From a bacterium (GTDB lineage Bacteria > Zhuqueibacterota > Zhuqueibacteria > Residuimicrobiales > Krinioviventaceae), in contig JAKQIY010000013.1 of NCBI GenBank assembly GCA_029561455.1, positions 124,001 through 188,000 on the forward strand: a stretch of 64,000 nt of DNA, read 5' to 3'. Both the position numbers and the translations under genes were made by a program. The notes below the pieces were generated by a model. That model worked only from the letters and a program-made list of their open reading frames with translations, was not told where the DNA came from and made no database searches. Below, in pieces: positions 4,975-62,487 of this stretch; the stretch's first letter is position 1; each line of letters begins with the position of its first letter.

Positions 4975-6489
4975 CTATTTCATCTTTTTACCATAATCGA
5001 GCGCAGTATCTGTCGTCAGCAAGGGAAAGCTGGGGACCATGACCGGAAAGGGATTGTATTTTTGCATAGCAAACATATCGATGCGGGTGAGTTTGATCTC
5101 ATTAAACATTTGTGTATTGATCTCTATCTGCCCGGAATATTTCTTTTGCAAATCATTTACATACTCATTCAGGTGTTCCTGGATGATGGGATAATAATTG
5201 CTTTCAAAATTTTGCGTTATTCCCTGTGACGTCAGCCAGGCCCGGCGCTGGTAAACGGAAACCATATAATCCTGCCACATCATTGCATTATGTTCGACAA
5301 TATTGACTTTATCGTAACCGCTGCTATATGCTTTTTCCGTCAGATACCTGTCCCGAATCAGGTCGACCAAGGCCAGTTTAAACTGTTCCGGGAATTCCGC
5401 ACTACTCATATTACGTTTCCGAAACACCAGCGGGTGTTTATCAATTTCATTCAATAGTTTTTTCACATCCCAGTCCTGACCGTCGATTTTCACTATCGGC
5501 AGATCCAGCAATTTTTCCATTTCCTGCAAATAATCATCCTGCGCCGCCAGCGGATCGGTATCATCTTTATCCCAGAATCTTTTTTTGAACTCGTTTTTCT
5601 TATCCTTGTCGGTCTTGAGATAAAACGGTTGCATTAATTCGGCAAGTTTGAACAGGGCGTCTCCATAAAACTCTGCGGTTTTACCTTTCATGGTATTGGC
5701 CACATATTCCTGGTAAAGCTTCAGGGCATAGCGATTTTTTAGTTTTTCGCGCACCTCATTCCATCTTGTTTGTATTTGCTGTTCGCCAATGACCATACTA
5801 TTAGTCCAGTCCAGAACCTGAATAAAGAGGTAAAGATCTTCTTCTGCGGCAATTGGCCCGACGACCTGGCCCGCTTGTAAGGAATCCGAGAACAGGGCCT
5901 GGTGAATAGCGTCATTGGCTTCATCTTTCCAGGCTACTTCACGCTGGGGTAACTCTTGCAGACCTCCCAGGTCGTGAAATACCCGGTTAAAATCTTTACA
6001 AGTCAGTTCTCCGGCTATATAGTCTGCTCTTTGTTTGTCGCCCACTGAAAAATAAGCAATTTTATAAGTACGGCCGGCATATTTAAACAGGGTTTTAATC
6101 TCACCGGTATCCGGTTCAGCTTTGGTATATACTTCGGCGTGAAACTGCCATTGCCGCATTGCCTGTTCCCGCCTGCCGGTAATATATGACTGGAATTCGG
6201 AATTTTGCAACAGGGGATTATTGGTACCGGCCTCCAGAGCCAGCAGTTTTTCGGCAATTAAGGAATTGAGAATGATCTTTTTATCCACCATGTAATTCCC
6301 CTTGCAATAAGGCGGGCGAATTGTATATTCGGCGCGATGAATAAACTCATCAACCATGATTTCTTTATCGCCGATGCGAGCAAGCACAGTTTGCTCCGGT
6401 TCCGGGGTTTTACGGCTGGAACAGCTTATTATTAATAAATTTGTCAATATTAACAGTAATAAATTTTTTTTAATTCGTTTCATTGTCAT
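4975..6489 (-). CDS. SurA/parvulin-like lipoprotein of module A
   Basis: 504 residues. Signal peptide with lipobox-like IISC near residue 23. The N-terminus (ARIGDKEIMVDEFIHRAEYT) resembles the start of SurA-type chaperones. About residues 130-245 read like a degenerate parvulin PPIase domain (YKIAYFSVGDKQRADYI, then VVGPIAAEEDLYLFIQVLD). The C-terminal half is unassigned but strongly conserved with the paralogue at 53369-54874 (HPLVFR, AYSSGYDK, and the end VPSFP...LDYG). Such proteins act as periplasmic foldases for outer-membrane or secreted clients; here the likely clients are the receptor, barrel and giant protein encoded upstream. It is the last gene of module A, 210 bases after the PorV-like gene with a hairpin in the gap. 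PPIase activity is uncertain. Confidence 0.75.
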   Translation of the reverse strand: MTMKRIKKNLLLLILTNLLIISCSSRKTPEPEQTVLARIGDKEIMVDEFIHRAEYTIRPPYCKGNYMVDKKIILNSLIAEKLLALEAGTNNPLLQNSEFQSYITGRREQAMRQWQFHAEVYTKAEPDTGEIKTLFKYAGRTYKIAYFSVGDKQRADYIAGELTCKDFNRVFHDLGGLQELPQREVAWKDEANDAIHQALFSDSLQAGQVVGPIAAEEDLYLFIQVLDWTNSMVIGEQQIQTRWNEVREKLKNRYALKLYQEYVANTMKGKTAEFYGDALFKLAELMQPFYLKTDKDKKNEFKKRFWDKDDTDPLAAQDDYLQEMEKLLDLPIVKIDGQDWDVKKLLNEIDKHPLVFRKRNMSSAEFPEQFKLALVDLIRDRYLTEKAYSSGYDKVNIVEHNAMMWQDYMVSVYQRRAWLTSQGITQNFESNYYPIIQEHLNEYVNDLQKKYSGQIEINTQMFNEIKLTRIDMFAMQKYNPFPVMVPSFPLLTTDTALDYGKKMK

Positions 6490-6699: not shown

Positions 6700-7773
6700 T
6701 CAGAATAAAAATCCCATTGTATAGCTGTGTACATAACCCAGCATCCCAATGTCTTTATAACAATAATCCAGTTTTAAACCGATATTGTTCATAAAACGCA
6801 GGACAAAGCCACCGCCAAAAGTAGCGCCATATTCCGATTCATCCATGAACAGGGCTTTATAGCCGCTGCGCAGATAAAAACTGCCTATAGCAGGCATTTT
6901 CATCATGTATTGCGCACCGAGGTTGATCGATTCGCTGTTATTGTTGGGGTGCAGGGCGTCAATTGATACTGTCAGGCGATGTTTGCCGATAACAATTGGA
7001 TTGACAGACATACCAACCCGGAAGATAAGCGGTAATTCCCACCCCTGCAAACGGTATTGACCGGGAACATCACGGTAATTACCATACTCGTCTGCGCTAA
7101 GATCGATTGGGAAGATAAGGTCCATACCGTCATATTTCATTTTTGTTCCATAGTTGGCTATACTCATACCAATAGCCATACCGTCATCTTTTTTACCGGT
7201 TGGGGAGAAAAAGTGCGTATTCAGCATTACACCGAGATCTACAGCTGCTGCTGAGGAACTGGTATGCCATATTTTGGATGAGATATATTTGGCCGATGCG
7301 CCAAAGGAAAACCATTCTGCCAGTTTGCGTGAATATGAAAAACTGAAGGCAAAATCATTGGCGGAGAAAAATTCTCCGGTTCCGGTTTGTTGATCCAGGG
7401 TGGTTACTTTCATATCGCCATAATCAACCTGGTAAATTCCCAGCGCCAATACACCCACCCTGGGAATTACGAGACCGGCAGCTGTAAATGAAGTATTGAT
7501 ATCAACAAACCAGGGTTGATAAGTGAACTGTACTTCGCTTTGATCCATATATCCCAAACCGGCCGGATTCCAGTAAATTGCAGAAAGATCTGTTGCCATA
7601 CTGACATAGGCTTCGCCCATAGCGCCCCCGGCGCTGCCGAATCCCATCTCCAGAAAATTCGCCGAAGTGGTACCCACACGATAGGGTTTTTGTGCAAAAC
7701 TTGAATTATTAAAACCAGATAATAATATCATCATAGTTAAAACAATCAAGCCCGATATTTTGAACACTTTCAT
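6700..7773 (-). CDS. PorV/PorQ-family outer-membrane barrel of module A
   Basis: 357 residues with a signal peptide ending near SSFAQ. The N-terminus shows the family signature (GTTSANFLEMGFGS followed by AMGEAYVSMATDLSAIYWNPAGL), and the protein ends with an aromatic residue (YTMGFLF) as outer-membrane barrels do. PorV in the T9SS delivers CTD-bearing cargo to the sortase and is related to FadL-type barrels. The role here may be specific to the ~1181-residue CTD protein encoded just upstream (78-base gap). It is clearly paralogous to 58572-59636 throughout (VQFTY, KYI.S.IWH, SNYGT). The start is supported by GAGAGG before the ATG. Confidence 0.85.
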   Translation of the reverse strand: MKVFKISGLIVLTMMILLSGFNNSSFAQKPYRVGTTSANFLEMGFGSAGGAMGEAYVSMATDLSAIYWNPAGLGYMDQSEVQFTYQPWFVDINTSFTAAGLVIPRVGVLALGIYQVDYGDMKVTTLDQQTGTGEFFSANDFAFSFSYSRKLAEWFSFGASAKYISSKIWHTSSSAAAVDLGVMLNTHFFSPTGKKDDGMAIGMSIANYGTKMKYDGMDLIFPIDLSADEYGNYRDVPGQYRLQGWELPLIFRVGMSVNPIVIGKHRLTVSIDALHPNNNSESINLGAQYMMKMPAIGSFYLRSGYKALFMDESEYGATFGGGFVLRFMNNIGLKLDYCYKDIGMLGYVHSYTMGFLF

Positions 7774-7851: not shown

Positions 7852-10800
7852 TCACTTGATTATTGCAAATTTGCCCATTTTTTCATCTCCTGTTTCCAGC
7901 ACCTTGATGTGATAAATGTACACACCAGCAGCGACTTCGAGACCTTCTCTGGTTAACAGATCCCAGTGAACAATACCCTCTGAAATGTCATTATTTACAT
8001 CTATCTGATCAACCAGTACGCCGCTGACGGTAAAGATATTGATAGAGCATCTGGCCGGGATATTTGTAAATATGATACGACGGCGCTGGTTCAAATAAGG
8101 ATTGCCAACTGCCGGTTCCATAAGGTTTGTCGCAACATAGGGATTGGGTACTACTTCAATTTTATCCAGTGAATTGGTTATTTCGGCTTTTTCTGTAAAT
8201 TCATTAGAATCAATGGTGAACATCAAAGAATCTGTGTGCCAGAATGGGCTATTGAACCTGACTTGATAAACATCATCCGCTTTGGGTAAATCGGACTCGT
8301 TATTGGCATTTTTAAAATCAATCAGGAATACTGTAGATGCCCACCGGCCAAGATCATTTTGGATTCCAACCACCACACGGTCTTTTAACAGCTCAAATGT
8401 TCCGTTACCATCTATATCCTGGGCTACCATTTCCATAATAAATGGTTGTCCGGTTGTTGAATCCATAATTGATGTGTTTTCTACATGAAAACTGAAATTT
8501 TGAAATTGGATCAAGCCTTCTTTAATCTTTACTCCATTCTCATCTTTAATGAGAGAAGTAGCAGTAATTCTTGTTTTGCTTGTATAATCGGAGTCATTAT
8601 CGGTAAAAACAATATTATAAGTATACGGATAATATTTTGATTCTTCCGCCGTCATGGTGACACTGATCGGCGAGTTGCCTTTCAGCCAGCCTGATCTGAG
8701 TGGATCATACTCACCTTCTTTTACCGGCATGGTAACTTTTAGTCTGATTCCGTCAAAAACATCTGTGGTATTGGTACCGGTTTTAATGAATTTATAACCC
8801 AGTGTTTCTGTCGAGTCCGCGATAACAGTTTGTTGTAACTGGCAGGTATCGAGAAACGCAACTGCATTATCGTTGGTCATATCATAAACTGTTATACTAT
8901 TATTAACCCATTTGATACCATAAGCAGATTTGTTTACCCGCCTTATTTCATGCACCCCGAATTTGATTTTATAACGATGGTCTTTTTTCAGAGCATCGGC
9001 AACAACTACTTCCGGTTCTAAAATACCACAACCGATTACTTTGTCCTGTCCTTCCATAGTAACTGTGGATTCGAAATGATAACCGGCTGCTTTTTGACCA
9101 GGAGTTACAACCGCGACGTTTTTACTCTGGAAAGTGATGATCTGTTCGTTTTTATCCAGTTGAATGATGATATTATTTTCCGCAGGGGCCAGACCGGTAC
9201 TACCGATAGTCGGTTCACCATAGTCGTAAGCAACCAGGGCATAATAATAGGTGCGGCCATTTTGTACTTCATAATCGGTATAAGAATGCAGCAGACCGGT
9301 ATCATTGCCCAGGTAAACGGCTACCCCCAAATCTTCGACCTGACCATAATTGGCATATCCGGTACGTTCATCTTTAACATCGCACATAAATATCGGCTTT
9401 TTTGAAACTTTACTGCCAAAGCCATCGGTAACAATTGTCGCATCGAGAAATCCCGGCTCGGTGCTGCGGTATAATTTATATCCTTCAAAATCATTAACAT
9501 TTTTCAGGAATGGGTCACGGGTACGCAATTCGGATATATTATCCCAGGTAAGATAGACACAGCCATCGCCTGCTGTAGCCGTTAATGCCGGCATGATCGG
9601 CGGTTTGGCAAAACGATAGTCTGTTTCATAAATAACCTGAACAATTTCTTTAGCTTTAAAAAGATTAGGAGATGTGGGAGGAATTGCATTCAATCCGGCC
9701 AGATCATCCCAGGCATGTAATTCGGACATGGAAATGCGTTCCGTACGACCTTTGTACAAGGGGAAAACTGCCGATGCAAATACTTCAGCCAGGTTTGAAA
9801 TTTCACCCATATAAGGATTCAGAGAATCGGCGCCAATCAGTTCCCACATTGATTTATCATTGCGGAACCAGTGTGTATACGGAACAACGTGATCGGGTAT
9901 TGGGAACATGTAAAATGAGGTCAAACCCAGCATGTCCGATTCGGAGACATCCAGAATACCAAAATCCGGTTCACCGCCCAGTCCTTCAATAAAATCAGGA
10001 CGATGATTACATTCCGTGCCGTTCGCATCCGGTTGATCGTAATTTAAATCCAATGGGCCAACACCGTCGGTACCAACATCATCACCATAATCTTCGTCTT
10101 CCTGGTACTTGTTGTCGCCATTGGCATCGTTACCGTCATCCCAGTCCTGGTCTTCATCGGCGTCCCAATGCGATTTGAGTTCTTCATCTTTTAAATGATA
10201 AAAAGTTTTAAAGGCTTCCAGGTTCGAGTAACCATCGGTCGGGCCAATTAAGGCCTGGGCAAAATTATCGCGTTTTTCATCAATAATACCGTCATCGTCA
10301 TTATCGATTCCATCCCAGGGAATGCCGGGGCTTTCGAGGAAGGCAAACCCCATAGCGCCGGTCGGCAGATCGCGAACGCCATGGCCATCGATATCCCACG
10401 AGTATGCAAGGTCAATATCTTTACGGAAAGCGCCCAGTTCATCGCTGCCTTCAGCCTGGCCGCCAATGGCGTTATCAACCCAATAACCAAAAGCCATTTC
10501 ATTCAAATCGTAATCGGAGACATTAGCAATGGTATATTCCCAAAAGATAGCGTCTTTAGCCTGGGGATTATTCCATTGAAATCCGCGCTGCTCGATGCGT
10601 AAACCCAACCCGCCCCAGGGTTTACCCCATTGCAGGGTAACTTCCGGATGAAAATCACCAATTTTTATTCCGGGACGGGGATAATACTTGATCGGTTTAA
10701 GAGTATCGCCTTCGTTGGTGATAAAAGTATCTTGCAGGTATTCCTGATCCTGCGCATCGTTGGCGACAAAAAAACTTTCCAAATCAGCTTTGGAGGGGCC

Positions 10801-11397
10801 GCGGCCAAAACGTCCGTTCCATTCGCCGGCCCATTTCAAACCAACGCCGCGTTCCGGCCAGCCGGCCGGCGGCCAGGATTCTTCACGGTCGCTGAGCGCC
10901 GGGGTTTCACTGGTCCAGTTAAAGTAACCGCGCACCGGGTATAATTTCCATTCAATCTGACCGGTAGGATCGCGATCCATTTCTTCGCGGTAACTGGTTT
11001 GCAGGAAATGCAGGGTATCGAGTAACCCCTGGGTTTTTAAGGAAGCGGCCAGGTTCATATCGTCAACGATAACCGAATCAACCGCTGCAGCCGGATCTTT
11101 TTTTACAAAAACCTGTGCGCCAATTAACAGACCGATACCGTCATTCGAATGCACGCCATTTAAATTATTCGGCCATTTGCTGGGAAACGGATCGGCGCCG
11201 TCGCCATGATCGGAAAGTTCTGTGGTATTGCGAAATTGCAAGCGAACATTGTTGCCTTCCATAAAGCCAACCCGTTCCGCTGCTTTATCACCGGCGCCAT
11301 CTTCCGGGCCTTCATAGGGCTTGCCCTGGGCAAATATTATAGATACGGCGATAAAATGAATGAGCAGGCCTGTAAATAATATTCTTAACACTTTCAT
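7852..11397 (-). CDS. Giant T9SS-sorted secreted protein of module A
   Basis: 1181 residues, signal peptide ending near IIFAQ, start supported by GGAGGT. The N-terminal domain (GFMEGNNVRLQFRNTTELSD) is shared with the module B paralogue. Residues ~360-450 are Asp/Asn-rich and resemble calcium-binding thrombospondin-3/EF-hand-like loops (DNDDDGIIDEK, DEDQDWDDGNDANGD). Around 595-730 is a fibronectin III-like region (LTWDNISE, YKLYRSTEPG, YYYALVAYD). The C-terminus (VVPNPY ... WDLLTREGLEVAAGVYIYH, ending KFAIIK) is a type A T9SS sorting-type domain. It is probably exported across the outer membrane and kept at the surface. Function is unknown; its place beside a SusC-like receptor suggests a substrate-binding partner. 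It starts 51 bases after the receptor gene. Confidence 0.8.
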   Translation of the reverse strand: MKVLRILFTGLLIHFIAVSIIFAQGKPYEGPEDGAGDKAAERVGFMEGNNVRLQFRNTTELSDHGDGADPFPSKWPNNLNGVHSNDGIGLLIGAQVFVKKDPAAAVDSVIVDDMNLAASLKTQGLLDTLHFLQTSYREEMDRDPTGQIEWKLYPVRGYFNWTSETPALSDREESWPPAGWPERGVGLKWAGEWNGRFGRGPSKADLESFFVANDAQDQEYLQDTFITNEGDTLKPIKYYPRPGIKIGDFHPEVTLQWGKPWGGLGLRIEQRGFQWNNPQAKDAIFWEYTIANVSDYDLNEMAFGYWVDNAIGGQAEGSDELGAFRKDIDLAYSWDIDGHGVRDLPTGAMGFAFLESPGIPWDGIDNDDDGIIDEKRDNFAQALIGPTDGYSNLEAFKTFYHLKDEELKSHWDADEDQDWDDGNDANGDNKYQEDEDYGDDVGTDGVGPLDLNYDQPDANGTECNHRPDFIEGLGGEPDFGILDVSESDMLGLTSFYMFPIPDHVVPYTHWFRNDKSMWELIGADSLNPYMGEISNLAEVFASAVFPLYKGRTERISMSELHAWDDLAGLNAIPPTSPNLFKAKEIVQVIYETDYRFAKPPIMPALTATAGDGCVYLTWDNISELRTRDPFLKNVNDFEGYKLYRSTEPGFLDATIVTDGFGSKVSKKPIFMCDVKDERTGYANYGQVEDLGVAVYLGNDTGLLHSYTDYEVQNGRTYYYALVAYDYGEPTIGSTGLAPAENNIIIQLDKNEQIITFQSKNVAVVTPGQKAAGYHFESTVTMEGQDKVIGCGILEPEVVVADALKKDHRYKIKFGVHEIRRVNKSAYGIKWVNNSITVYDMTNDNAVAFLDTCQLQQTVIADSTETLGYKFIKTGTNTTDVFDGIRLKVTMPVKEGEYDPLRSGWLKGNSPISVTMTAEESKYYPYTYNIVFTDNDSDYTSKTRITATSLIKDENGVKIKEGLIQFQNFSFHVENTSIMDSTTGQPFIMEMVAQDIDGNGTFELLKDRVVVGIQNDLGRWASTVFLIDFKNANNESDLPKADDVYQVRFNSPFWHTDSLMFTIDSNEFTEKAEITNSLDKIEVVPNPYVATNLMEPAVGNPYLNQRRRIIFTNIPARCSINIFTVSGVLVDQIDVNNDISEGIVHWDLLTREGLEVAAGVYIYHIKVLETGDEKMGKFAIIK

Positions 11398-11448: not shown

Positions 11449-14136
11449 TTAAAACATAAAACCAACACCGAATTTAATTAACCGGGGTGCGGAATAAGCT
11501 GACGGGTCCTGATAAGTATCTTCATAGGTATTAAAATCGCTATGATGATTATTGCGCTCGCTTTCCAGCACAACATTGGTATAAGCGCGCCCGGTGCGGC
11601 TATACACCCAATTCTCATTCAAATTATCTAGCAGGTTGTATACGTTCAGGCTGAAACGCATTTTAATGTTTTTCATAACAGTTAAATCATAGTATCCATA
11701 TAAATCCAGATTATAACGGTTGGGTTTCCAGTCATTGTTTTGGTACAAGTTAACATAATAAAGCTGACTGGATGGCAAGGGCGCCCATGTATATGGGGAA
11801 TTGGAATTATAATACCCTGTAAGGGTAGCGCCCATATTGTTTTTATGATAACCCAGCGTCACATTCAGGGTATGGCGCTGATCCCAACTCATTGGAATTA
11901 ATCTTGGGATTGGATCCTGGTTTTGACCGGCGCGGTCAAAGGTTGTCAGGGCATTATCGGCATTACCGCGGGTATACTGCAGGGTATAATTAACATTGGC
12001 GTAATAATCACCGGTAGCAAAGTCATAGGTTATTTCCAAACCTTTGGCATTGCCGTAATCTTTGTTAGTGTAACGACCATAAATTTCCGCATTATAGGTG
12101 GTGATAACCGCCATGCTGAGCAGATCATAAATATCACGATAGAACAACGATACTTCAAGTCCCATACCTTTCATCAATTGCTGCCACAAGCCGATTTCGT
12201 ATTGAACTGTACGCTGCGGGCGCAATTGCGGATTGCCCTGCTGGGTGGCAAAATTAGTGGGATTGATTATCCAGGAATTATTCTGATAGAAATTGGAAAA
12301 GGGCGGTGACTGGAAAAAATGACCATAACTAAAATGCAGCAATGCGGCTTCACCCAACTGGTACGACATACCCAGTCTGGGGCTGATTTGCGCTTTGGGT
12401 TCAGCATCGAGTTTGGTTGACATTCTTGAGGGATCATCATACCGTATCAGGTTCACCGGGTTTCGCAGGTTGGATGGATACTGAGTATTGGGATCTACAT
12501 AATCGTAGCGTACGCCGATGTTAATAACCATCTCGTCGAATTCCATTTTGTCCTGAATATATGCGGAAAAATCCAGGGGTTTTTTATGGTAAATATCGGA
12601 GTAGAGGGAAGAATCCGGGTAAACAACCGGATCAAAATAGAATGCTTCCCATTCGGTATTATGCCATTTGTTCTGAATGCTGTGATAAATGCTTTCGAGA
12701 TCATGTTGCAAATAATCTACACCGGTTTTAATGCTGTGATTTTTGTTGATTTGCCAGTTAATATCAAATTTAACGTTTAAATCTTTGGTAAAACTTTCAT
12801 AGTGATCTTTGGAATCACCGCCGGTGGAAAAGCCCGGCCCTGTAGAACTGCTGAATCGCGGATGTACATAGCGGCTATCGAGCGGATCCTCGTACATATA
12901 ATTACCATAATAGTTATCCAGATAGGACATTTTTAGTTCATAGAACAGGGAGGAGGCAAGCATATGGTTAATGCTCAGGGCATAGTATTGCGATTTTGAA
13001 TAATTGGTTGGCCGTCCATCCGGATTATATTTATAATAATGACTATAATTTTTGGATTGATTATCATTCAAATTGTACAATAATTTCAGCTTGATATTTT
13101 TAGTTAACCGCGAGGCCAGAGTGGTTGTCAGAGTTCTGTATATATCCCTGTTCATCGGCACATAACTGCTGTCGCCGGTTTTTTCAGAATACCAGTTCAT
13201 AGGATCGGGATCGTTAAAGAAACTGTAATTGTTTTTATCAAACAGTTTATAACCATTCAGATGGCCTTTATTATCCTGATAACGATAATTGACAATAAAG
13301 CTGAGATAGTCTTTGATAACCGGACCACTGATCTGCATTTTATAATCCTCATTGCGATCCAGTTCCGAATCCTTGAGACCAACGAAAATATCCGTGTTTG
13401 AGGTCAGGTAATTTGCAAAGCTTCCCGATACGGAACCGTGGAAAGAGTTACTGCCTTCTTTGGTAATAGCGTTAACAACGCCACTCATGGCGCGTCCATA
13501 TTCGGCATTAAAGGTACCTTTAATAACTTCAACTTCCTCGATTGCCTCGGTTTCCAGATTAACACTGCGGCCTTCCCCGGAAAGCGCATTGGTAACCTGT
13601 TGCCCATCAATCAGATGCGAAACCTCGCCGCTGCGTCCGCCGCGGAAATGTCCCTGCACCACACCTGCCTGCATATTGACAACATCATTGATATTTTCTA
13701 CTGGTAATATATCAATTTGTTCAGATGAGACATTGCGTACCGAACTGGTTTGATCTTTTTTAACGGCTATTCGCTGGGCTTCTACGGTAACAACCTCACC
13801 TTCGACTACCGTTGGATTTAGCCGAAAGTCGAGATTGGTCGTCCGGTTTACAGATACCCGGACACTTTGCATGCGAATGCTTTCATAACCGATATAGTTA
13901 CAACGTACTGTGTACTCGCCAGGGGGGACATTGATGATAAAAAATTCACCATCAGCTGAAGCGGCAGCTCCCATTCTGGTGCTTTCCAGCAGTACATTTG
14001 CGCCAATTAACGGTTCACCGGTTTCAGCATCAAACACTTTACCCGTAATTTTACCGGTGGTTTGTGCAAAGGTTACTCCGGCGATCACTAGCAGTAACAT
14101 AACTGTGTTTGAAAATAGTTTCCTTGTGACTTTCAT
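11449..14136 (-). CDS. TonB-dependent receptor with carboxypeptidase-like domain (module A)
   Basis: 895 residues. After a signal peptide (ending TFAQ), residues ~28-110 form a carboxypeptidase D regulatory-like domain (TGKITGKVFDAETGEPLIGA, PPGEYTV). A plug domain follows (~115-230: SSEQIDILPVENINDVVNMQ, SHLIDGQQV, VEVIKGTFNAEYGRAMSGVV), then a beta-barrel ending in Phe (IKFGVGFMF). This SusC-like architecture serves active uptake across the outer membrane, powered by TonB-ExbBD. No SusD lipoprotein follows; the ~1181-residue protein does. GGAGGT precedes the ATG. It is paralogous to the receptor at 59704-62487. It is probably the first gene of the module A operon, with its promoter in the 200 bases upstream. 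Confidence 0.9.
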   Translation of the reverse strand: MKVTRKLFSNTVMLLLVIAGVTFAQTTGKITGKVFDAETGEPLIGANVLLESTRMGAAASADGEFFIINVPPGEYTVRCNYIGYESIRMQSVRVSVNRTTNLDFRLNPTVVEGEVVTVEAQRIAVKKDQTSSVRNVSSEQIDILPVENINDVVNMQAGVVQGHFRGGRSGEVSHLIDGQQVTNALSGEGRSVNLETEAIEEVEVIKGTFNAEYGRAMSGVVNAITKEGSNSFHGSVSGSFANYLTSNTDIFVGLKDSELDRNEDYKMQISGPVIKDYLSFIVNYRYQDNKGHLNGYKLFDKNNYSFFNDPDPMNWYSEKTGDSSYVPMNRDIYRTLTTTLASRLTKNIKLKLLYNLNDNQSKNYSHYYKYNPDGRPTNYSKSQYYALSINHMLASSLFYELKMSYLDNYYGNYMYEDPLDSRYVHPRFSSSTGPGFSTGGDSKDHYESFTKDLNVKFDINWQINKNHSIKTGVDYLQHDLESIYHSIQNKWHNTEWEAFYFDPVVYPDSSLYSDIYHKKPLDFSAYIQDKMEFDEMVINIGVRYDYVDPNTQYPSNLRNPVNLIRYDDPSRMSTKLDAEPKAQISPRLGMSYQLGEAALLHFSYGHFFQSPPFSNFYQNNSWIINPTNFATQQGNPQLRPQRTVQYEIGLWQQLMKGMGLEVSLFYRDIYDLLSMAVITTYNAEIYGRYTNKDYGNAKGLEITYDFATGDYYANVNYTLQYTRGNADNALTTFDRAGQNQDPIPRLIPMSWDQRHTLNVTLGYHKNNMGATLTGYYNSNSPYTWAPLPSSQLYYVNLYQNNDWKPNRYNLDLYGYYDLTVMKNIKMRFSLNVYNLLDNLNENWVYSRTGRAYTNVVLESERNNHHSDFNTYEDTYQDPSAYSAPRLIKFGVGFMF

Positions 14137-53368: not shown

Positions 53369-54874
53369 TCATTGCTTTTCATTCATTTTTATTCCGTAAT
53401 CAAGCCTGAAATTACTTGTAATAACAGGGAATTCCGGTACTACCTGTGTATATGGCATTTTTTCCTGAAAGACTGCCATGTGTATTTGAGTTAAATTAAT
53501 TTTTTCAAATGCTTGCAAATTTATTTCTATCTGATCGTTATATTTAATTTGCAGACTGTCAATATATGGATTTAAAAACTGTTCAACAAGTTGTAATGGA
53601 CTAGATTTTATCGAGGAATCGGAAATTACAGCTTTCAAATAATGCGCCTTATTGAATAAATACCCATAATGATCCTGCCACATTGCAACATCATGAATTA
53701 CGCCTGGATGTTTATCATAACCGCTTTTATACGCTTCTTTGTTTAGATAAATGTCTCTGACCATATCAATAATTGCATATTGTAATTGTTTACCAAATTG
53801 TTTCGGGGGGAATTTTTTTTCACGAAATACCAGGGGATGGGCAATTATTTCATCAAGGAAATCTCCGACTGTCCATATATTACCATTTTCTGTGAATAAC
53901 TGTTCCTTAGCCATTGAACGTAAGTCATTACGATTTTGTTCGTAATTCTTTTCCTGTATTTCTTGTTGAAACATTTCCCGGTTGGATAGTTTTTCCCGTT
54001 GAGTATCCGTTATAAAATACATTTCACCCAAGAGTTGTGCTACATTTTTTAAGGTCTCCGGTACGAACTCTATGCTTTTGCCCTTCATAATAGCATATAT
54101 TTTTTGATCGTAAAGGGCAGCAGCTTTTTTTTCGGTAAAATAAGTTTTCACAGTCGTTAATCGTTCTGCCATATCAGACTGCGTCATCATGGGTTGTTTG
54201 GTGACTTTTAATATCTTGATAAAGATATGTTCTTCCGGGTCGGTGGAAATTGGGCCCAGTATATCTCCAGCGTGCAGTTCTTTTGTAAAAAAGCGATCGA
54301 TCATGGATTCATCTTCGGCAATCGACCATTCTACAGTACGATGTGGTATTGTATCGAGTTCAGTATACTGGCTATATACCTGGCGAAAATCCTGTCGCTG
54401 CTCATAGAGTTGATACTCTATCTGGCCGGCTTTAGCAGGATCGTTAATATTAAAATAGGCAATTTCATAGCTGTTTTTTACATACGGTAGATATTTTTTT
54501 ATTGATGTAGTATCTATTTTCACCTGGTCATATACTTCACGGTAAAACTGCACCAGCCGCATGGCCTGTTCTTTACGCCCCCGCATCTGTAATTGATAAT
54601 TCTTACTCTGAAAAAGATCATTATCATTGCCGGCTTCAAGCGCCATTAATTTTTCTGCAATTAACGAATTGAGGACAATCTTTTTATGCGCGTAACTATT
54701 ACCGGCGCAATAAAAAGGTCTGACAGTGTATTCCGAACGGCGGATGAATTCATTCACCGTAATAGTTTTGTCACCAATTTTTACCAGCACAATATCATTA
54801 TCGGTGATTTTTGAAGATTTGTTACAGGATAGAACCAAAATGAATATAATGGAAAAAAACCGTGCACTTTTCAT
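53369..54874 (-). CDS. SurA/parvulin-like lipoprotein of module B
   Basis: 501 residues from the ATG at 54874, where the signal MKSARFFSIIFILVLSC gives a lipobox VLSC. An upstream in-frame ATG at 55042 would run into the end of the preceding gene and lacks a signal peptide at its start. The sequence aligns end to end with 4975-6489: VKIGDKTITVNEFIRRSEYT, ILGPISTDPEEHIFIKILKV, HPLVFREKKFPPKQF, YKSGYDK, then VPEFP and LDYG at the C-terminus. It probably folds the receptor, barrel or secreted partner during transit through the periplasm. Fourth gene of module B; the DUF362 gene follows 12 bases later. Confidence 0.78.
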   Translation of the reverse strand: MKSARFFSIIFILVLSCNKSSKITDNDIVLVKIGDKTITVNEFIRRSEYTVRPFYCAGNSYAHKKIVLNSLIAEKLMALEAGNDNDLFQSKNYQLQMRGRKEQAMRLVQFYREVYDQVKIDTTSIKKYLPYVKNSYEIAYFNINDPAKAGQIEYQLYEQRQDFRQVYSQYTELDTIPHRTVEWSIAEDESMIDRFFTKELHAGDILGPISTDPEEHIFIKILKVTKQPMMTQSDMAERLTTVKTYFTEKKAAALYDQKIYAIMKGKSIEFVPETLKNVAQLLGEMYFITDTQREKLSNREMFQQEIQEKNYEQNRNDLRSMAKEQLFTENGNIWTVGDFLDEIIAHPLVFREKKFPPKQFGKQLQYAIIDMVRDIYLNKEAYKSGYDKHPGVIHDVAMWQDHYGYLFNKAHYLKAVISDSSIKSSPLQLVEQFLNPYIDSLQIKYNDQIEINLQAFEKINLTQIHMAVFQEKMPYTQVVPEFPVITSNFRLDYGIKMNEKQ

Positions 54875-54956
54875 AACATACAAACTTTGTGATATTAATC
54901 GACAGGGTGATTTGTTTTTGAAACAAACCACCCCTGTAATAAATTTAATATATAAA

Positions 54957-57900
54957 TTATTTAATAATAGCGAATTTCCCCATTTTTTGTTTTCCGGTTG
55001 CCTGCGATTCAATGTGATATATATAGTAACCGGCGGCAACATCCAACCCGTCTTTGGTCAGTAAATCCCAGTAGGCAATACCCTTCGCATTGGACGTGGT
55101 GTCCCATTCATTTTGCCTGGAATCAACCGAGTTATTCACTTCAAACTCATCGATCAATACGCCGGAGATGGAAAAAATCCGAATTGTGCATTGCGCGGGA
55201 ATATGCGTGAACATGATCCGTCTGCCCTGGTTCTTTTCCCAGTTGCCGACCGCTTTTTCCATAGTATTGGTTACTATATAAGGATTGGGAACGACCCGGA
55301 TATTCTCCATCGTTTCGTCAAGTTGTTTTTTATCAACTTTATCCGCTACTTGCACCTTGAAGGTGATTTTATCGTCGGCAGTGAAACCACGGTTAAACGC
55401 TACATGATAGGTATCGCCCGGTTTGGGTAATTCGGATTCATCAGTTGCATTTCTGAAATCAAAGACAAAACTCAGGCCGGCCCATCTTCCTTTTAGCCGG
55501 CCAAAGTTGTTGACATAGCCCACAAGCACCCGGTCGGTCTGCCAGTCTAACTGCATATTATTATTAATATCATTAACAATAATTTCCGGATATAATATGT
55601 TAACAGAATCGGCAAGTTGAGTAGTGCATTGCACATAAAACGAAAAAGGCTGTTCATACAAGATATTGCTGCTAAATATCTGGTGCAGGGAATCATCCAC
55701 AATGCCTGATGCGGTTTCCAGGGTATCGTTTTCCATCATGACCTTGGTATTGGTAAAGATAATATCAAAATCATACGGGAAATACCGCACCAGTTCATTT
55801 TGGGGGATCAAAACCTGTATCCGCGCATTCCCGGTGATCCAGCCCGAATTCAGCGTGTCGATAGTGGGAGAGAGGGTGGGAACGCGATATTTAATGGTCA
55901 TCCCTTCAAACTGGGAAGACGTCAATTCTTTTTTGGTATCGAACAAGTAGCCTTCAGCTACTTCCCAAAATTCGGCTTCATTGCGGTAAAAACTGAAATT
56001 GGAACCGACAAAATTATCTCCGTCTTCGTGATAGACAAGGGTATCGGCAGTGGTATCCCAAATATCAATAGTATTATTGCGATACGCCAGGCCGTGATCG
56101 AGAAACCGGGTAAAGCCCAATGTATCGACGCCAAATTTAACCATATATTCATGGCCGTCTTGAAGATATGATTCAACCACTATTTCCGGTTTTATGGTGT
56201 TTTTACCAAAGCTGTTATGATAATCCAGCCCGGTAATTTCCGGCGGCACATAACCGGCCGCGTATTGATGGGGAGTAACAATAGCGACATTGCGGGTTAC
56301 ATCGACTATGCTTTCATCTGCCGCCACATCTATAGTAAAAGTGTTCTCCGAGGGACCCACTTGTACATCATTATTATTAACTCCATAGTCATAAGCCACT
56401 AAAACATAGTAATAGGTGCGGCCGTTTTCTACATTATTATCAATATAATAATTTCTAATCCCGGTATCATCACCCAGATAGAACCCCATGCCGTTACGGT
56501 AACCAAAATCCGTAAAACCTTTTTTACCATCAATCAAGTCACACTGATAAACCGGTTTGATCGATGTGGGCGTGCCAAAGCCATCAGTTATAATATTATA
56601 ATCCGACATGAACGGATCGGTTGATTTGTACAACTTGTAACCTTCAAAATCATTAATATTGCCAAGCAACGGTTCGCGGGAATAACGTTCCGCAATATTA
56701 TCCCACGTCAGCACTACTTTACCGTCGCCGGGAATGGCTTTAAGGGTAGGCATAATTGGCGGTTGGGCAAATTGATAATCGGATTCGTATATAGCCTGCA
56801 CGGTTTCCTTTAAACTGAACAAGGCCGGCGCTGTGAAAGGCGGAGCGGATTGTTCATGTAAACGTTCCATGGCGTGCAGTTCCGACATGGAGATGCGTTC
56901 AGTGCGGCCCCGATACAATGTAAATACTCCGGAGGCAAACTGTTCGATAAAGTTTTGCGGATTGCCCTGAAATTCATGGAATTTGGGTTCTTCTTCGGTA
57001 AGCCAATACCACAGGGATTCGTCGGCATCAGCCTGGTGAGGTTTGCCGGAGCCCCATTCCAGAACATATTTAAAGGTAGTTAAACCCAGCATGTCGGATT
57101 CGCCAATATCGGTATAGCCAAAATTGGGTTCACTGCCAATGCCGGGATCGAGGTCGGGTTTGTGGTTACATTCAGTGCCGTTCGCATCCGGCCCGGGATA
57201 ATCCAGATCCCAGGGGCCGCTGCCGTCCGTGCCGACATCGTCGCCGGCGTTTTCATCTTCATCATATTTGCCGTTTTCATTGGCGTCATTCCCGTCCGAC
57301 CAGTCCTGGTCTTCATCGCCTTCATAATGCCAGTTAAGCGTGGTTGTATCGGCTGGATTTTCTATACCCCGAAAGTGATTCCAGTAAGCAAGGTTATCAA
57401 CGCCGGTAAGCGGAGAGACAAAAGCGCCGGCAAGGTTATCGCGGCTTTCATCGATAACCCCATCCTGGTCGTTATCTACATGATCGGTATTGACGCCGGG
57501 GCTTTCCAAAAAGGCTATGCCCATACAACCCGGAACTCCGCCGCCGCCGATCATCTCGCCATCAAGGTCCCAGGAAAAACACATTTCCAGTTCGGTATCA
57601 TAATAGGCAACATCATCGGCGCTGGTGTTGCCATAATCATATTCTTCACCGCCAACAGCGTTATCGATCTGGTAACCAAAGTACATTTCCGGGATATTAT
57701 AATCCGATATGTTGGCTATGGTGTATTCCCAAAAAATGCAATCCGCCGCTTCGGGATGTTTCCATTGAAAGCCGCGCACTTCCACACGCAATCCAAGACC
57801 ACCCCAGGGAAACCCGCGCTGGATTGATACTGTCGGATCAATATCACCTATCTTTACTCCGGGACGGGGATAGTATTTAATTTTATCTTCGGGACCCAGG

Positions 57901-58532
57901 TATTCCTGATCCTGGGCGTCATTGGCGACAAAAAATGTTTCCAGGTCGGCTTTGGTAATGCCCAGTCCAAACCGGCCATTCCATACTCCCGGCCATTTCA
58001 GTTCGCTGCCGTTGGCCGGCCAGCCATTAACCGGCCAGGATTCGGATTTGTTGCTCATCGCCGGGGTGGAACTGGCAATATTAAAGTAACCGAAAACCGG
58101 GTACAAGCCCCATTCAATTGTCCGGTCGTCGTTCATATCCATAAATTCCCGGTAACTGGCTTGACAGTAATAAAGCGTGTCCAAATCATTGCGGGTGTGA
58201 ATAACCGCCGGATCATCGACCGGGATAGAGTCTTGTTCCACATAGACACGCGCGCCAAACAGGACATGAATGCCATCGTGCATTTTCGAACCGGTATAAT
58301 CATTCGGCCAGCGCGATACCCAATACCCTTTATTACAACAATCAGATAATTCGGTAGTATTTTTAAAGAACAGCAATACATTATTGCCGTTCATAAATCC
58401 TTCACGTTCCGCCAGTATATCACCGGCGGGGTCGGATGGACCATCGTAGATTTTTCCATATTGAGAAAAAACTGCGTCAGTCAGTAACCAAAGAAAAAGT
58501 AATACCATTACACTATATCTTCCAGTACTCAT
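54957..58532 (-). CDS. Giant T9SS-sorted secreted protein of module B
   Basis: 1191 residues from the ATG at 58532, 10 bases after GGAGG; an ATG at 58541 is only 1 base from that site and so is less likely. Signal peptide ends VFSQYG. The N-terminus (GFMNGNNVLLFFKNTTELSD) and whole layout match 7852-11397. An Asp-rich stretch lies at ~370-460 (DNDQDGVIDESRDN, DEDQDWSDGNDANENGKYDE), a fibronectin III-like part near 605-740, and the ending (RVVPNPY ... YWDLLTKDGLDVAAGYYIYH, KFAIIK) is a sorting-type domain. A calcium-stabilised surface protein is likely; its role as receptor partner is inferred from co-occurrence only. It starts 39 bases after the PorV-like gene. Confidence 0.8.
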   Translation of the reverse strand: MSTGRYSVMVLLFLWLLTDAVFSQYGKIYDGPSDPAGDILAEREGFMNGNNVLLFFKNTTELSDCCNKGYWVSRWPNDYTGSKMHDGIHVLFGARVYVEQDSIPVDDPAVIHTRNDLDTLYYCQASYREFMDMNDDRTIEWGLYPVFGYFNIASSTPAMSNKSESWPVNGWPANGSELKWPGVWNGRFGLGITKADLETFFVANDAQDQEYLGPEDKIKYYPRPGVKIGDIDPTVSIQRGFPWGGLGLRVEVRGFQWKHPEAADCIFWEYTIANISDYNIPEMYFGYQIDNAVGGEEYDYGNTSADDVAYYDTELEMCFSWDLDGEMIGGGGVPGCMGIAFLESPGVNTDHVDNDQDGVIDESRDNLAGAFVSPLTGVDNLAYWNHFRGIENPADTTTLNWHYEGDEDQDWSDGNDANENGKYDEDENAGDDVGTDGSGPWDLDYPGPDANGTECNHKPDLDPGIGSEPNFGYTDIGESDMLGLTTFKYVLEWGSGKPHQADADESLWYWLTEEEPKFHEFQGNPQNFIEQFASGVFTLYRGRTERISMSELHAMERLHEQSAPPFTAPALFSLKETVQAIYESDYQFAQPPIMPTLKAIPGDGKVVLTWDNIAERYSREPLLGNINDFEGYKLYKSTDPFMSDYNIITDGFGTPTSIKPVYQCDLIDGKKGFTDFGYRNGMGFYLGDDTGIRNYYIDNNVENGRTYYYVLVAYDYGVNNNDVQVGPSENTFTIDVAADESIVDVTRNVAIVTPHQYAAGYVPPEITGLDYHNSFGKNTIKPEIVVESYLQDGHEYMVKFGVDTLGFTRFLDHGLAYRNNTIDIWDTTADTLVYHEDGDNFVGSNFSFYRNEAEFWEVAEGYLFDTKKELTSSQFEGMTIKYRVPTLSPTIDTLNSGWITGNARIQVLIPQNELVRYFPYDFDIIFTNTKVMMENDTLETASGIVDDSLHQIFSSNILYEQPFSFYVQCTTQLADSVNILYPEIIVNDINNNMQLDWQTDRVLVGYVNNFGRLKGRWAGLSFVFDFRNATDESELPKPGDTYHVAFNRGFTADDKITFKVQVADKVDKKQLDETMENIRVVPNPYIVTNTMEKAVGNWEKNQGRRIMFTHIPAQCTIRIFSISGVLIDEFEVNNSVDSRQNEWDTTSNAKGIAYWDLLTKDGLDVAAGYYIYHIESQATGKQKMGKFAIIK

Positions 58533-58571
58533 TATAATCATACCTCCAAACAGAATAAACTCAATTCATGG

Positions 58572-59636
58572 TTAAAACAAAAATCCAACGGTGTATGTAT
58601 GCATATTACCGAGCAGACCAATATCACGGTACGAATAATCCAGTTTTAATGACTTGTTTCCCAAATTATAAAGCATAATGCCAAAGCCAAAGGTCAACCC
58701 ATACTGAGAGTCTTGCATATTTATCCCTTTATAGCCGGCGCGGAGTGTAAATTTCCCCGCTGCGGGAATGTTTATGGCATATTGAGCGCCCGTATTGATA
58801 TATTCATTATTATTGTTAGCATGGATGAAATCAAGGCACACGGTAAGTCGGTGATTGGTGGTAATTACCGGGTGCACGGCAAAACCGATTCGCGCTACCA
58901 GCGGTAATTCCCATTGCGAGGTTTCAAGTCTGGTTGCCGTATAGCCATAATTTCCTTCTTCATCCGGGGCAATATCTACAGTCTCTTTTAAATCTATACC
59001 GTTAAAACCCATTCTCGTACCATAGTTTGATATGTTCATGCCAATATCCAAACCATCGCCCGGTTCGCCGGTACTGGAAAAAAACCAGGTATTGACAAGT
59101 GCGCCCAGGTCAAAGGCAACCGCGCTGGCGCTTTCGTGCCAAATGCGGGAATTGATATATTTTGCCGAAGAACCAAAAGAAAACCATTTTGCCAGTTGCC
59201 GGGCATACGTCAATGATATAAAAGCGTCCTGCCCGTCAAACACTTCGCCGGTACCATCCTGGCGATCTACGGTATTCACTTCTTCCGCTCCATAGCTGGT
59301 TTGAAAAAATGTTACGGCAAAATTGCCCAACCTGGGGTTAACATAAGCTGCGCCAACATGAGCCGAATTTATATCCAGTATCCAGGGCAAATAAGTGAAT
59401 TGAACCTGGTTCTTGTTTAATTTGGCAAGAGAAGCCGGGTTAAAATAGATAGATGAGACATCCTCCGCCAGCGCCGTTTGCGCTTCGCCCATGGCATTGC
59501 CGGAGCTGTTGAACCCGATTTGCAGAAAATCGGCAGTGGTTGTACCAGCCCGGGTTTGGGTTTGCGATAACGACACCCCGATCATACAATTTATCAGTAA
59601 TGCAATTATTATTAATATTTTACAAGTGAACCGCAT
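58572..59636 (-). CDS. PorV/PorQ-family outer-membrane barrel of module B
   Basis: 354 residues, signal peptide ending VSLSQTQ. The family motif is present (AGTTTADFLQIGFNSSGNA followed by MGEAQTALAEDVSSIYFNPA), and it ends YTVGFLF. It shares the whole layout with 6700-7773 (VQFTYLPWILDIN vs VQFTYQPWFVDIN). GGAGGT lies before the ATG. In module B it comes second, directly after the receptor and before the giant protein, whereas in module A it comes third. PorV-type barrels hand CTD cargo to the surface-attachment complex; here the neighbouring giant protein is the evident cargo. Confidence 0.87.
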   Translation of the reverse strand: MRFTCKILIIIALLINCMIGVSLSQTQTRAGTTTADFLQIGFNSSGNAMGEAQTALAEDVSSIYFNPASLAKLNKNQVQFTYLPWILDINSAHVGAAYVNPRLGNFAVTFFQTSYGAEEVNTVDRQDGTGEVFDGQDAFISLTYARQLAKWFSFGSSAKYINSRIWHESASAVAFDLGALVNTWFFSSTGEPGDGLDIGMNISNYGTRMGFNGIDLKETVDIAPDEEGNYGYTATRLETSQWELPLVARIGFAVHPVITTNHRLTVCLDFIHANNNNEYINTGAQYAINIPAAGKFTLRAGYKGINMQDSQYGLTFGFGIMLYNLGNKSLKLDYSYRDIGLLGNMHTYTVGFLF

Positions 59637-59703: not shown

Positions 59704-62487
59704 TTAAAACAAGACGCCTAAACCGATTCTTATTTCCCGCGGCGCCTGATACATTAGCGGATTGGCAAACTGATCATAAACAGTGTTGTAATTGCTTCTA
59801 AAGTTATTGATTGTTTGTTCACCCAAAATTGACGTATAAGCCCTGCCGGTACTGCCATAAACCTGCATTTCATTTAATTGATCGAATAAATTTTTAATAT
59901 ACAGGTACCAGCGTAATTTTATTCTGGTTGTCATATTTATATCATAATATCCCTGTAAATCAAACCGGTAATTCATAGGACGGGTAGCGTTATTTGGCAA
60001 TAAATTTTGTTTGGCCAACCGGCTTTCCAGAATCGGTTCGATAGTGTAGGGGAGACCGGAGTTCAGGAAACCGGTAAGACTGAAGTTATAGTTACTGCGC
60101 GTATAACCCAGGTTAATATTCATCGTATGCCGCTGATCCCAGCTTAACGGTATCAGGGTCGGTATCGGGTCCTGGTTTTCCGCCAGCCGATTAAATGTGG
60201 AATATGGATTATCCGCATTCCCGCGGGTATATTGCAGGGTATAATTTGCCGCCAGGGAGATGGGCCCGGTTTTATAGTCCAGTTTTACTTCAAGACCTTT
60301 TGAATTTGCATAATCTTTATTATCATACACTGCATACTGGATTTGGTTATAAGTTGTCCACACCACGGCGGTCAGCAAGTCATAAATATCGCTGTAATAG
60401 ACGGATACTTCCAAACCTAATCCCGGTATAATTTCCTGCCACAAACCCATTTCATACTTGACGGTCTTTTGCGCATCGATTTGCGGATTACCGTGCGTGG
60501 TGCTATAATCGTTATTGGGAATCATAAAACGGTAATTTTCATACAAGGCGTAAAAAGGGGGCATTTGGAAGAAATGACCATAACTGAAATGCAGCACTGC
60601 CGATGAACCCAAAGTATACGATAACCCCAGTCTGGGGCTGATCTGGGTTTGCGGATCGGCCTGTTGGTATTGCGACATGTAGGAGGAATCGTCATATTCA
60701 CCCTGGTTGGCCGGATTACGCCGGTTGGTCGGGTAAACTGTGTTGGAGTTAAAGTAATCGTAACGAAGACCATAATTGACCACCAGTTCCGAAAACTCCA
60801 TTTTATCCTGAATAAAAGCGGTAAAATCGTATGGTTTTTTTACATAATGATCCATTTCAATAGCTTCAGCGGGGTACAGCTCCGGTTCCCATTGTTTAAA
60901 TATAATTTCACTAGATTCCGCATCATAATACCAGGAGGATATATCGGCGGTGTTCCAGGCTACATCCCTGACATAGAAAGGTTTGTTTTCAACACGATAG
61001 CTCGTATACTGAATACCGGTTTTGATACTATGATTTTTATCGACCTGCCAGTTAAAATCCCATTTGCCGATGTACTGCTCGGTGAATCTTTCGCTGTGTT
61101 GGGTATCGATTCCACCGCTGGAAAAGCCGCCGGCGCTTGACGAGTAATTGGGATTCAAATAATTTGGGTTTAGCGGATCCTTAAAATGATACCTGCCGAA
61201 CCAGTTTTCTGAATATGAAAATTTCAGATCGTAAAAAGCGCTTTTACCTAACATGTGGTTCATTTGCATCGAGATCATTTCCGCTTCTTCATAATCTCTT
61301 GCCATACCATAGGGATTATATTTATAGCTATGGACGTAACTAGAACCGGGGACTGGGCCTTCCTGATCATTTTTAGTATAAACCAATCCCAGTTTCAGAT
61401 TATTAACCGGCTTGAAAGACAGTTTACCGAAAAAGGAAGTACTTTTTGAATTATTGGTTGGAATGTATGAGCCGTCGCCGGTGTGTTCCGAGTAATATTT
61501 TACTCCCCTGACATCAGCATCCCAGGGACTGGTTTTATCTCCTAATATATCGGGGGTAGAAAAATTACTATAGTCGGCCGGATTAAAATAATGTATACCG
61601 TTTATATAGCTGTCATCTGCTACATATCGTATATTGGTAATGAATGATAAATATTTTTTGATTATTGGGCCTTCCAGCTGGGCTTTATATTCCCTGATCC
61701 GGTCAATACTGCCATTTTTCATACCGATAAAAATATCTTTATTGTTTGTTATATAATTACCCAAATGAACATAAGCGGAACCATGAAATTGATCGCCACC
61801 ATCTTTGGTAACCATGTTCACAATACCGCTCATCGCTTTTCCGTATTCCGCATTGAATGTACCTGTAATGACTTCCAGATCCTGCACGACCTCTTTTTCA
61901 AGCGTTACATTGCTTTTTTCGCCCTGAAAGAGTTCATCGACGGGAATCCCATCAATTAAATACGATACCTCATTCGTACGCCCGCCGCGAAAGTGACCAT
62001 CTACTACCCCGGCCTGCATGTGGATCACTTCAGTAACCGATTGCACCGGTAAAATGGCAATTTCCTCGGTGGAAATATTTTTTATTGAACTGGTTTGATC
62101 TTTTTTAATTGCAACCTGGCTTGCATAGACAAAAATTTCTTCACCTTCCAAAACCGTTTGCTGCAATTTAATATTAATGTTTGACGAACGGTTTACGGAA
62201 ACCGCAACATTTTCCAGGTTTACCGGATTATATCCTATCATTCGGGCCTGAACGGTATAATTGCCTGGAGGTATATTAATGATATAGAAATCACCATTAC
62301 CATCGGAGGCTGCCCCATACCTGGTATTTAATAAAAGAATATTAACTCCGGGCAGCGATTCGCCGGTTTCGGCATCTATGATTTTACCGGTTATTTTTCC
62401 TGTTGTTTGGGCGGTCAGTTCCCGACTTGATATTAAGAATAGAGTAATTACTACAAGTGCAATTACTTTGTAAAATATGTGTTGCAT
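59704..62487 (-). CDS. TonB-dependent receptor with carboxypeptidase-like domain (module B)
   Basis: 927 residues. Signal peptide ends LTAQ. Carboxypeptidase D regulatory-like domain (TGKITGKIIDAETGESLPGV, PPGNYTVQ) at ~28-110, plug (AILPVQSVTEVIHMQAGVVD, YLIDGIPVDE, GTFNAEYGKAMSGIVNMVT) and a long barrel ending IRIGLGVLF. It imports a substrate by TonB-driven transport; given the downstream GH92 and CBM9-like genes, a mannose-containing oligosaccharide is the best guess. It is clearly paralogous to 11449-14136. GAGGA lies before the ATG. No SusD gene is adjacent. It is the first gene of the module B operon, with 96 bases of AT-rich sequence upstream of it before the next terminator. Confidence 0.9.
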   Translation of the reverse strand: MQHIFYKVIALVVITLFLISSRELTAQTTGKITGKIIDAETGESLPGVNILLLNTRYGAASDGNGDFYIINIPPGNYTVQARMIGYNPVNLENVAVSVNRSSNINIKLQQTVLEGEEIFVYASQVAIKKDQTSSIKNISTEEIAILPVQSVTEVIHMQAGVVDGHFRGGRTNEVSYLIDGIPVDELFQGEKSNVTLEKEVVQDLEVITGTFNAEYGKAMSGIVNMVTKDGGDQFHGSAYVHLGNYITNNKDIFIGMKNGSIDRIREYKAQLEGPIIKKYLSFITNIRYVADDSYINGIHYFNPADYSNFSTPDILGDKTSPWDADVRGVKYYSEHTGDGSYIPTNNSKSTSFFGKLSFKPVNNLKLGLVYTKNDQEGPVPGSSYVHSYKYNPYGMARDYEEAEMISMQMNHMLGKSAFYDLKFSYSENWFGRYHFKDPLNPNYLNPNYSSSAGGFSSGGIDTQHSERFTEQYIGKWDFNWQVDKNHSIKTGIQYTSYRVENKPFYVRDVAWNTADISSWYYDAESSEIIFKQWEPELYPAEAIEMDHYVKKPYDFTAFIQDKMEFSELVVNYGLRYDYFNSNTVYPTNRRNPANQGEYDDSSYMSQYQQADPQTQISPRLGLSYTLGSSAVLHFSYGHFFQMPPFYALYENYRFMIPNNDYSTTHGNPQIDAQKTVKYEMGLWQEIIPGLGLEVSVYYSDIYDLLTAVVWTTYNQIQYAVYDNKDYANSKGLEVKLDYKTGPISLAANYTLQYTRGNADNPYSTFNRLAENQDPIPTLIPLSWDQRHTMNINLGYTRSNYNFSLTGFLNSGLPYTIEPILESRLAKQNLLPNNATRPMNYRFDLQGYYDINMTTRIKLRWYLYIKNLFDQLNEMQVYGSTGRAYTSILGEQTINNFRSNYNTVYDQFANPLMYQAPREIRIGLGVLF

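Follow-up and report, generated by a model that had tools for sequence, protein, structure and literature searches.

A TonB-dependent receptor, a giant T9SS-type surface protein and a dedicated PorV paralog encoded in a conserved operon: a candidate SusD-free glycan importer

Gene content of the modules and anatomy of the giant protein

The window, a stretch of 64,000 nucleotides, contains two copies of a gene module on the minus strand, each comprising a TonB-dependent receptor (TBDT), a giant surface protein, a PorV paralog and a SurA-like lipoprotein (Table 1). A preceding sequence-only reading had correctly recognized the giant open reading frame of module 1 and its large paralog, which share 49% identity end to end, while overlooking the PorV paralog and the lipoprotein. 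In module 2 the PorV gene is located between the TBDT and the giant. The module 1 TBDT matches PF00593 (6.9e-28), PF13715 (3.5e-19) and PF07715 (7.9e-11). Other genes in the window include a putative lipoprotein with von Willebrand A and C-type lectin domains on the opposite strand beside module 1 (3184-4833), a CotH-like kinase protein with chitobiase C-terminal and Fn3-associated domains (1-1923), and a glycoside hydrolase-like protein with a sub-threshold match to GH59 (15714-17225).

Table 1 Module genes and segments of the module 1 giant in the window.
Feature	Position	Strand	Description
Module 1 TBDT	11449..14136	(-)	895 aa; N-terminal CarbopepD_reg domain, plug, barrel
Module 1 giant T9SS-type surface protein	7852..11397	(-)	1181 aa, ATG start; open reading frame and family profile
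Signal peptide of giant	11329..11397	(-)	residues 1-23
N-terminal beta-rich region of giant	9604..11328	(-)	residues 24-598; AlphaFold model
Asp/Asn-rich stretch of giant	9928..10335	(-)	residues 355-490; composition; conserved in subfamilies A and B
Fibronectin III-like part of giant	9154..9606	(-)	residues 598-748; weak Fn3 matches, strands in model
Middle beta-rich region of giant	8164..9153	(-)	residues 749-1078; AlphaFold model
T9SS type A-like C-terminal sorting domain of giant	7852..8178	(-)	residues 1074-1181; profile comparisons
Module 1 dedicated PorV-family outer membrane protein	6700..7773	(-)	357 aa; NF033709, PF19572
Module 1 SurA/PrsA-like lipoprotein	4975..6489	(-)	504 aa; lipobox Cys23 conserved
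Module 2 TBDT	59704..62487	(-)	927 aa; Pfam
Module 2 PorV-family protein	58572..59636	(-)	354 aa; Pfam and NCBIfam models
Module 2 giant	54957..58541	(-)	1194 aa from first ATG, 1191 from next ATG
Module 2 SurA/PrsA-like lipoprotein	53369..55042	(-)	true start probably internal ATG near 54877

The N-terminus of the giant is hydrophobic and ends in FAQ, Gln occupies position 24 in each of the 84 aligned family members, and both inspection and conservation identify a Sec signal peptide. Neither window giant has a lipobox or an N-terminal lipoprotein Cys. The shared N-terminal motif proposed earlier is present as NTTELSD, at residue 57 in the module 1 giant and residue 61 in its paralog. Residues 24-598 are a conserved region, for which a sequence-profile search of the PDB returned no relative of known structure. 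The Asp/Asn-rich region described earlier was confirmed by composition: Asp and Asn together make up 28% of residues 355-490 compared to 15% of the whole protein, and the densest 136-residue stretch was matched in only 3 of 2000 shuffles. The DNDDDG sequence found here would be a possible calcium loop. Sequence support for the fibronectin III-like part was weak (an Fn3-like chain in the PDB, E=0.05); strands are present there in the model.

The proposed sorting tail aligns with the PF18962-type T9SS tails of proteins encoded by neighboring genes (hhalign, 98.4%, E=8e-15), and a weak alignment was obtained with the PorU tail of known structure (E=0.0015). It scores 16.9 bits for TIGR04183 (cut-off 23), also missing the PF18962 cut-off; these comparisons place it as a putative divergent member of the T9SS type A sorting domains. 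Structure prediction of the module 1 giant alone, a check suggested by the sequence-only reading, was carried out with AlphaFold2 using 84 family members and gave a model (pLDDT 87, pTM 0.77) consisting mostly of strands with few helices. Profile searches of the PDB with the whole giant and with each segment gave matches to the tail (PorU, PorZ-type 5m11, FlgD) and the weak Fn3 match only; a spider toxin chain that aligned with the middle segment (E=0.003) was taken as a chance match.

The PorV paralogs of the window score 209.7 and 178.8 bits for the PorV/PorQ family NF033709, well above the cut-off of 90. For the canonical PorV equivalog NF033710 they reach 90 and 75 bits against a cut-off of 250, and they also fall below the PorQ and PorV2 equivalog cut-offs. 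The lipoprotein is assigned as SurA/PrsA-like by predicted homology: its family profile matches the foldase PrsA (4wo7, E=2.5e-7), SurA_N was matched in 15 of 40 family members, and the lipobox Cys is retained throughout the alignment.

Conservation of the operon and its genomic setting

A scan of named genomes identified 461 stretches encoding relatives of the giant, and the best 79 loci, selected by giant similarity alone, were read; their records are labeled as KSB1, Calditrichota, Marinimicrobia and Ignavibacteria-type bacteria. Among the 82 giants encoded in these best 79 of the 461, 70 directly follow a TBDT, four a PorV gene and four a tandem giant, and four lie at a contig end, so that none of the 78 giants with an upstream gene is preceded by an unrelated one. 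The earlier claim that the giants always lie next to a TonB receptor thus holds, within an array of TBDT, giant and PorV genes, in the window and in the best 79 further loci of the 461 stretches. The usual order in these loci is TBDT-giant-PorV, followed by the SurA-like gene in about half of them. Median intergenic gaps of 9-11 bp and overlaps of 1 or 4 bp at 15 of 71 TBDT-giant and 24 of 69 giant-PorV junctions suggest translational coupling of the module genes. The operon conserved across several phyla is a unit larger than the pair of giant and receptor. Three tandem giants with a single PorV were observed at L164:1949-13591, similarly at L088, and at L152:282-10977, the first two also having a single TBDT; such arrangements suggest that a receptor may have more than one capture protein, or capture proteins that can replace each other.

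The window's genome (5.85 Mb, 98.8% complete) encodes 37 TBDT plugs. A giant or a shorter partner carrying the C-terminal domain accompanies 15 of the 16 TBDTs of at least 890 residues and none of the 21 shorter ones (Fisher 1.7e-9). Eight of these 15 partners are giants, and the other seven are proteins of 657-766 residues that have the tail in common with the giants and resemble them weakly in the Fn3 part. A PorV gene adjoins the partner in 11 of the 15 modules, directly downstream in ten and between TBDT and giant in module 2 of the window, and the remaining four run into contig ends. The seven modules with shorter partners (L066-L070, L074, L075) likewise consist of TBDT, tail-bearing protein and PorV, and their neighbors are more varied. 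The sixteenth long TBDT is accompanied by a different tail-bearing protein, with a GH28 gene downstream. A further TBDT of 829 residues (L073:8322-10811), closely related to the module receptors (HMM E about 1e-261), is followed by five genes for proteins of 330-346 residues and lacks a giant.

Across the 15 paralogous modules, TBDT distances and partner distances correlate strongly (r=0.98; p=1.5e-4 when permuted within classes), and the PorVs of subfamily A modules form one clade, those of short-partner modules another. Because of this correlation and the clustering of PorVs by partner type, the modules appear to duplicate and diverge as units. Co-inheritance by linkage only would yield part of this signal, and the correlation was not significant when only the five subfamily A modules were compared (r=0.50, p=0.12). 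The genome also encodes SprA (SprA_N, 2.7e-43). The SprA gene is clustered with the gene of a PorU-like C25 protease that bears a FlgD-like tail and with the beginning of a PorV-family gene (L204:2545-17001), a cluster that is likely the T9SS core of this genome.

Among the 73 proteins scanned from genes downstream of the modules, 32 matched GH16, nine GH3 and seven GH5, many of them with T9SS tails, and sugar-transporter genes were also found in the flanks. The gene upstream of the TBDT usually encodes a protein of about 850 residues that combines a CBM9-like domain with a T9SS tail (27 and 31 of 41 upstream genes, respectively). A locus for beta-1,3-glucan (laminarin) would be expected to contain such genes, and as judged from its genes the setting of the module is that of a beta-glucan utilization locus. 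The scanned subfamily A modules of the window's genome do not share the GH16 setting, having GH92, GH10, GH127, CBM9 and symporter genes as neighbors, and since their neighbors differ the substrate has probably diversified among them.

A proposed role in glycan capture

The giant was earlier proposed to be a possible SusD substitute. This is plausible with regard to function but wrong with regard to homology. On the functional side stand the obligate pairing with long TBDTs, the glycan setting, the lack of any SusD match in the window's genome (PF07980, PF14322) and the lack of a recognized enzyme family in the giant; as with SusD, the gene of the giant directly adjoins that of its TBDT. SusD has an alpha-helical TPR fold. 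Homology to it was ruled out, as the two window giants have no SusD family among their Pfam matches, the model is rich in beta-strands instead of showing a helical TPR fold, the lipobox is missing, and the TBDT partner is a different one. The complete module 1 TBDT scores 60.1 bits for the SusC model TIGR04056 (cut-off 368), compared to 112-180 bits for five TBDT fragments encoded beside SusD in the same phylum; since the SusD-adjacent receptors score higher, giant modules and SusCD seem to coexist as separate lineages. Giant-family matches occur in 79 of the 82 genomes of the phylum and SusD matches in 30. Twelve of 18 other carriers have no SusD match and one (G095) has 16, and in the phylum of a Marinimicrobia carrier (G086) strong giant matches were found in 88 of 149 genomes.

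We consider it somewhat better than an even bet, with a probability of roughly 0.58, that the giant is the glycan-capturing extracellular partner of a SusD-free TonB-dependent importer, exported by the T9SS and delivered by PorV. According to this model, the signal peptide would direct the giant through Sec to the periplasm, and the SurA/PrsA-like lipoprotein may chaperone the giant or the TBDT. The type IX system would then carry the giant across the outer membrane by means of its C-terminal domain, and its own co-inherited PorV paralog, not a shared PorV, would take the tail and perhaps retain the giant as a membrane anchor. The beta-rich N-terminal region could bind oligosaccharides freed by the neighboring GH16, GH3 and GH5 enzymes and present them to the TBDT, with the giant possibly acting as a lid on the barrel. 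Weighing on this reading are the sharing of one TBDT and one PorV by several giants at L164, the coexistence of SusD in a minority of genomes, the giantless relative of the module receptors at L073, the window-genome modules scanned without a GH16 setting, the non-significant distance correlation within the five subfamily A modules, and the use of one PorV for all type A substrates in Flavobacterium johnsoniae.

The conservation of the operon also fits a role of the giant as an enzyme or an adhesin. As a SusE/SGBP-like scaffold that binds glycans at the surface, or as an adhesin, the giant would concentrate substrate near the TBDT without ever capping or gating the barrel. Its multidomain, beta-rich, Fn3-like anatomy resembles that of surface glycan-binding proteins, and the tandem giants behind one TBDT (L164, L152) would suit a scaffold better than a single lid. 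However, a separate CBM9 surface protein is usually encoded upstream already (27/41), and the accessory binding proteins of polysaccharide utilization loci usually pair more loosely with their TBDT than the one-to-one pairing seen here, which leaves this explanation unlikely, if still the strongest competitor. That the N-terminal region instead is an unrecognized enzyme tethered to the importer, for instance a hydrolase, would account for the approximately 50% identity of giants across phyla and their many invariant D/E/N/W residues. Many of the invariant acidic residues, however, fall inside the Asp/Asn-rich stretch, where they are consistent with calcium sites. Moreover, no enzyme family was found in the giant among Pfam, NCBIfam and PHROGs, in agreement with the earlier reading, profile searches gave no enzyme of known structure, and known hydrolases are already encoded next door; we regard an enzymatic role as improbable.

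Finally, the TBDT could serve the export of the giant to the surface, nutrient uptake not being the point. In favor of this, the PF25183 barrel family is among the matches of the TBDT, and there is a precedent in Myxococcus xanthus, where the TBDT Oar assists PopC secretion (PMC6434023). Against this, the giant would have its own export route because of the T9SS-type tail and the adjoining PorV, and the GH16, GH3 and sugar-transporter genes in the flanks point to uptake, making such a role very improbable.

Returning to the capture model, a wider version of it would see in the module a second system that evolved independently to fulfil the task of SusD, in which a lid or capture arm exported by the T9SS and delivered and held by PorV serves a non-SusC TBDT in the uptake of beta-glucans in SAR406 Marinimicrobia, KSB1, Calditrichota and relatives. 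This version is put forward tentatively, at somewhat less than even odds. If true, a protein secretion system can supply TonB importers with a lid or capture arm, PorV paralogs act as substrate-specific shuttles, and the use of beta-glucans by uncultured marine and sediment bacteria would be predictable from a simple operon signature. Searches for glycan uptake loci in these groups, among them the ocean-wide SAR406 clade, often rely on SusC/SusD pairs and would miss the module.

Comparison with known systems

In the largely open-access literature that was searched, no description of the module was found. Its features can be compared to several characterized systems. Type B substrates of the T9SS depend on a cognate PorP/SprF shuttle whose gene lies downstream (PMC12618676) and remain bound to it (PMC9143113), and as in the module a large T9SS-type surface protein is encoded beside a dedicated outer membrane barrel. 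In contrast, the tail of the giant is type A-like, its barrel belongs to the PorV family (FadL-like), and a TBDT is part of the operon. A dedicated PorV as substrate shuttle would be an extrapolation from type B substrates, and in F. johnsoniae a single PorV serves all type A substrates (PMC12618676). Relative to PorV and PorQ of the T9SS, the module PorVs share the subfamily but remain far from the equivalogs and form a separate clade tied to the giants.

In the Flavobacterium BAM complex, FadL-like BamG holds the surface protein BamH beside another barrel (PMC12611786), so that a FadL-type barrel acts as scaffold for an extracellular protein in a similar manner; machine and sequences are different, and the likeness is a structural precedent only. 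A close functional parallel would be the SusC/SusD importers of Bacteroidota (utilisomes, PMC7618045), which likewise combine a TBDT and a dedicated surface partner with surface binding proteins and hydrolases in a glycan locus. SusD is an alpha-helical lipoprotein, whereas the giant is beta-rich, about 1180 residues long, and equipped with a non-lipoprotein signal peptide and a T9SS-type tail, and the giant module has PorV and SurA-like genes in addition.
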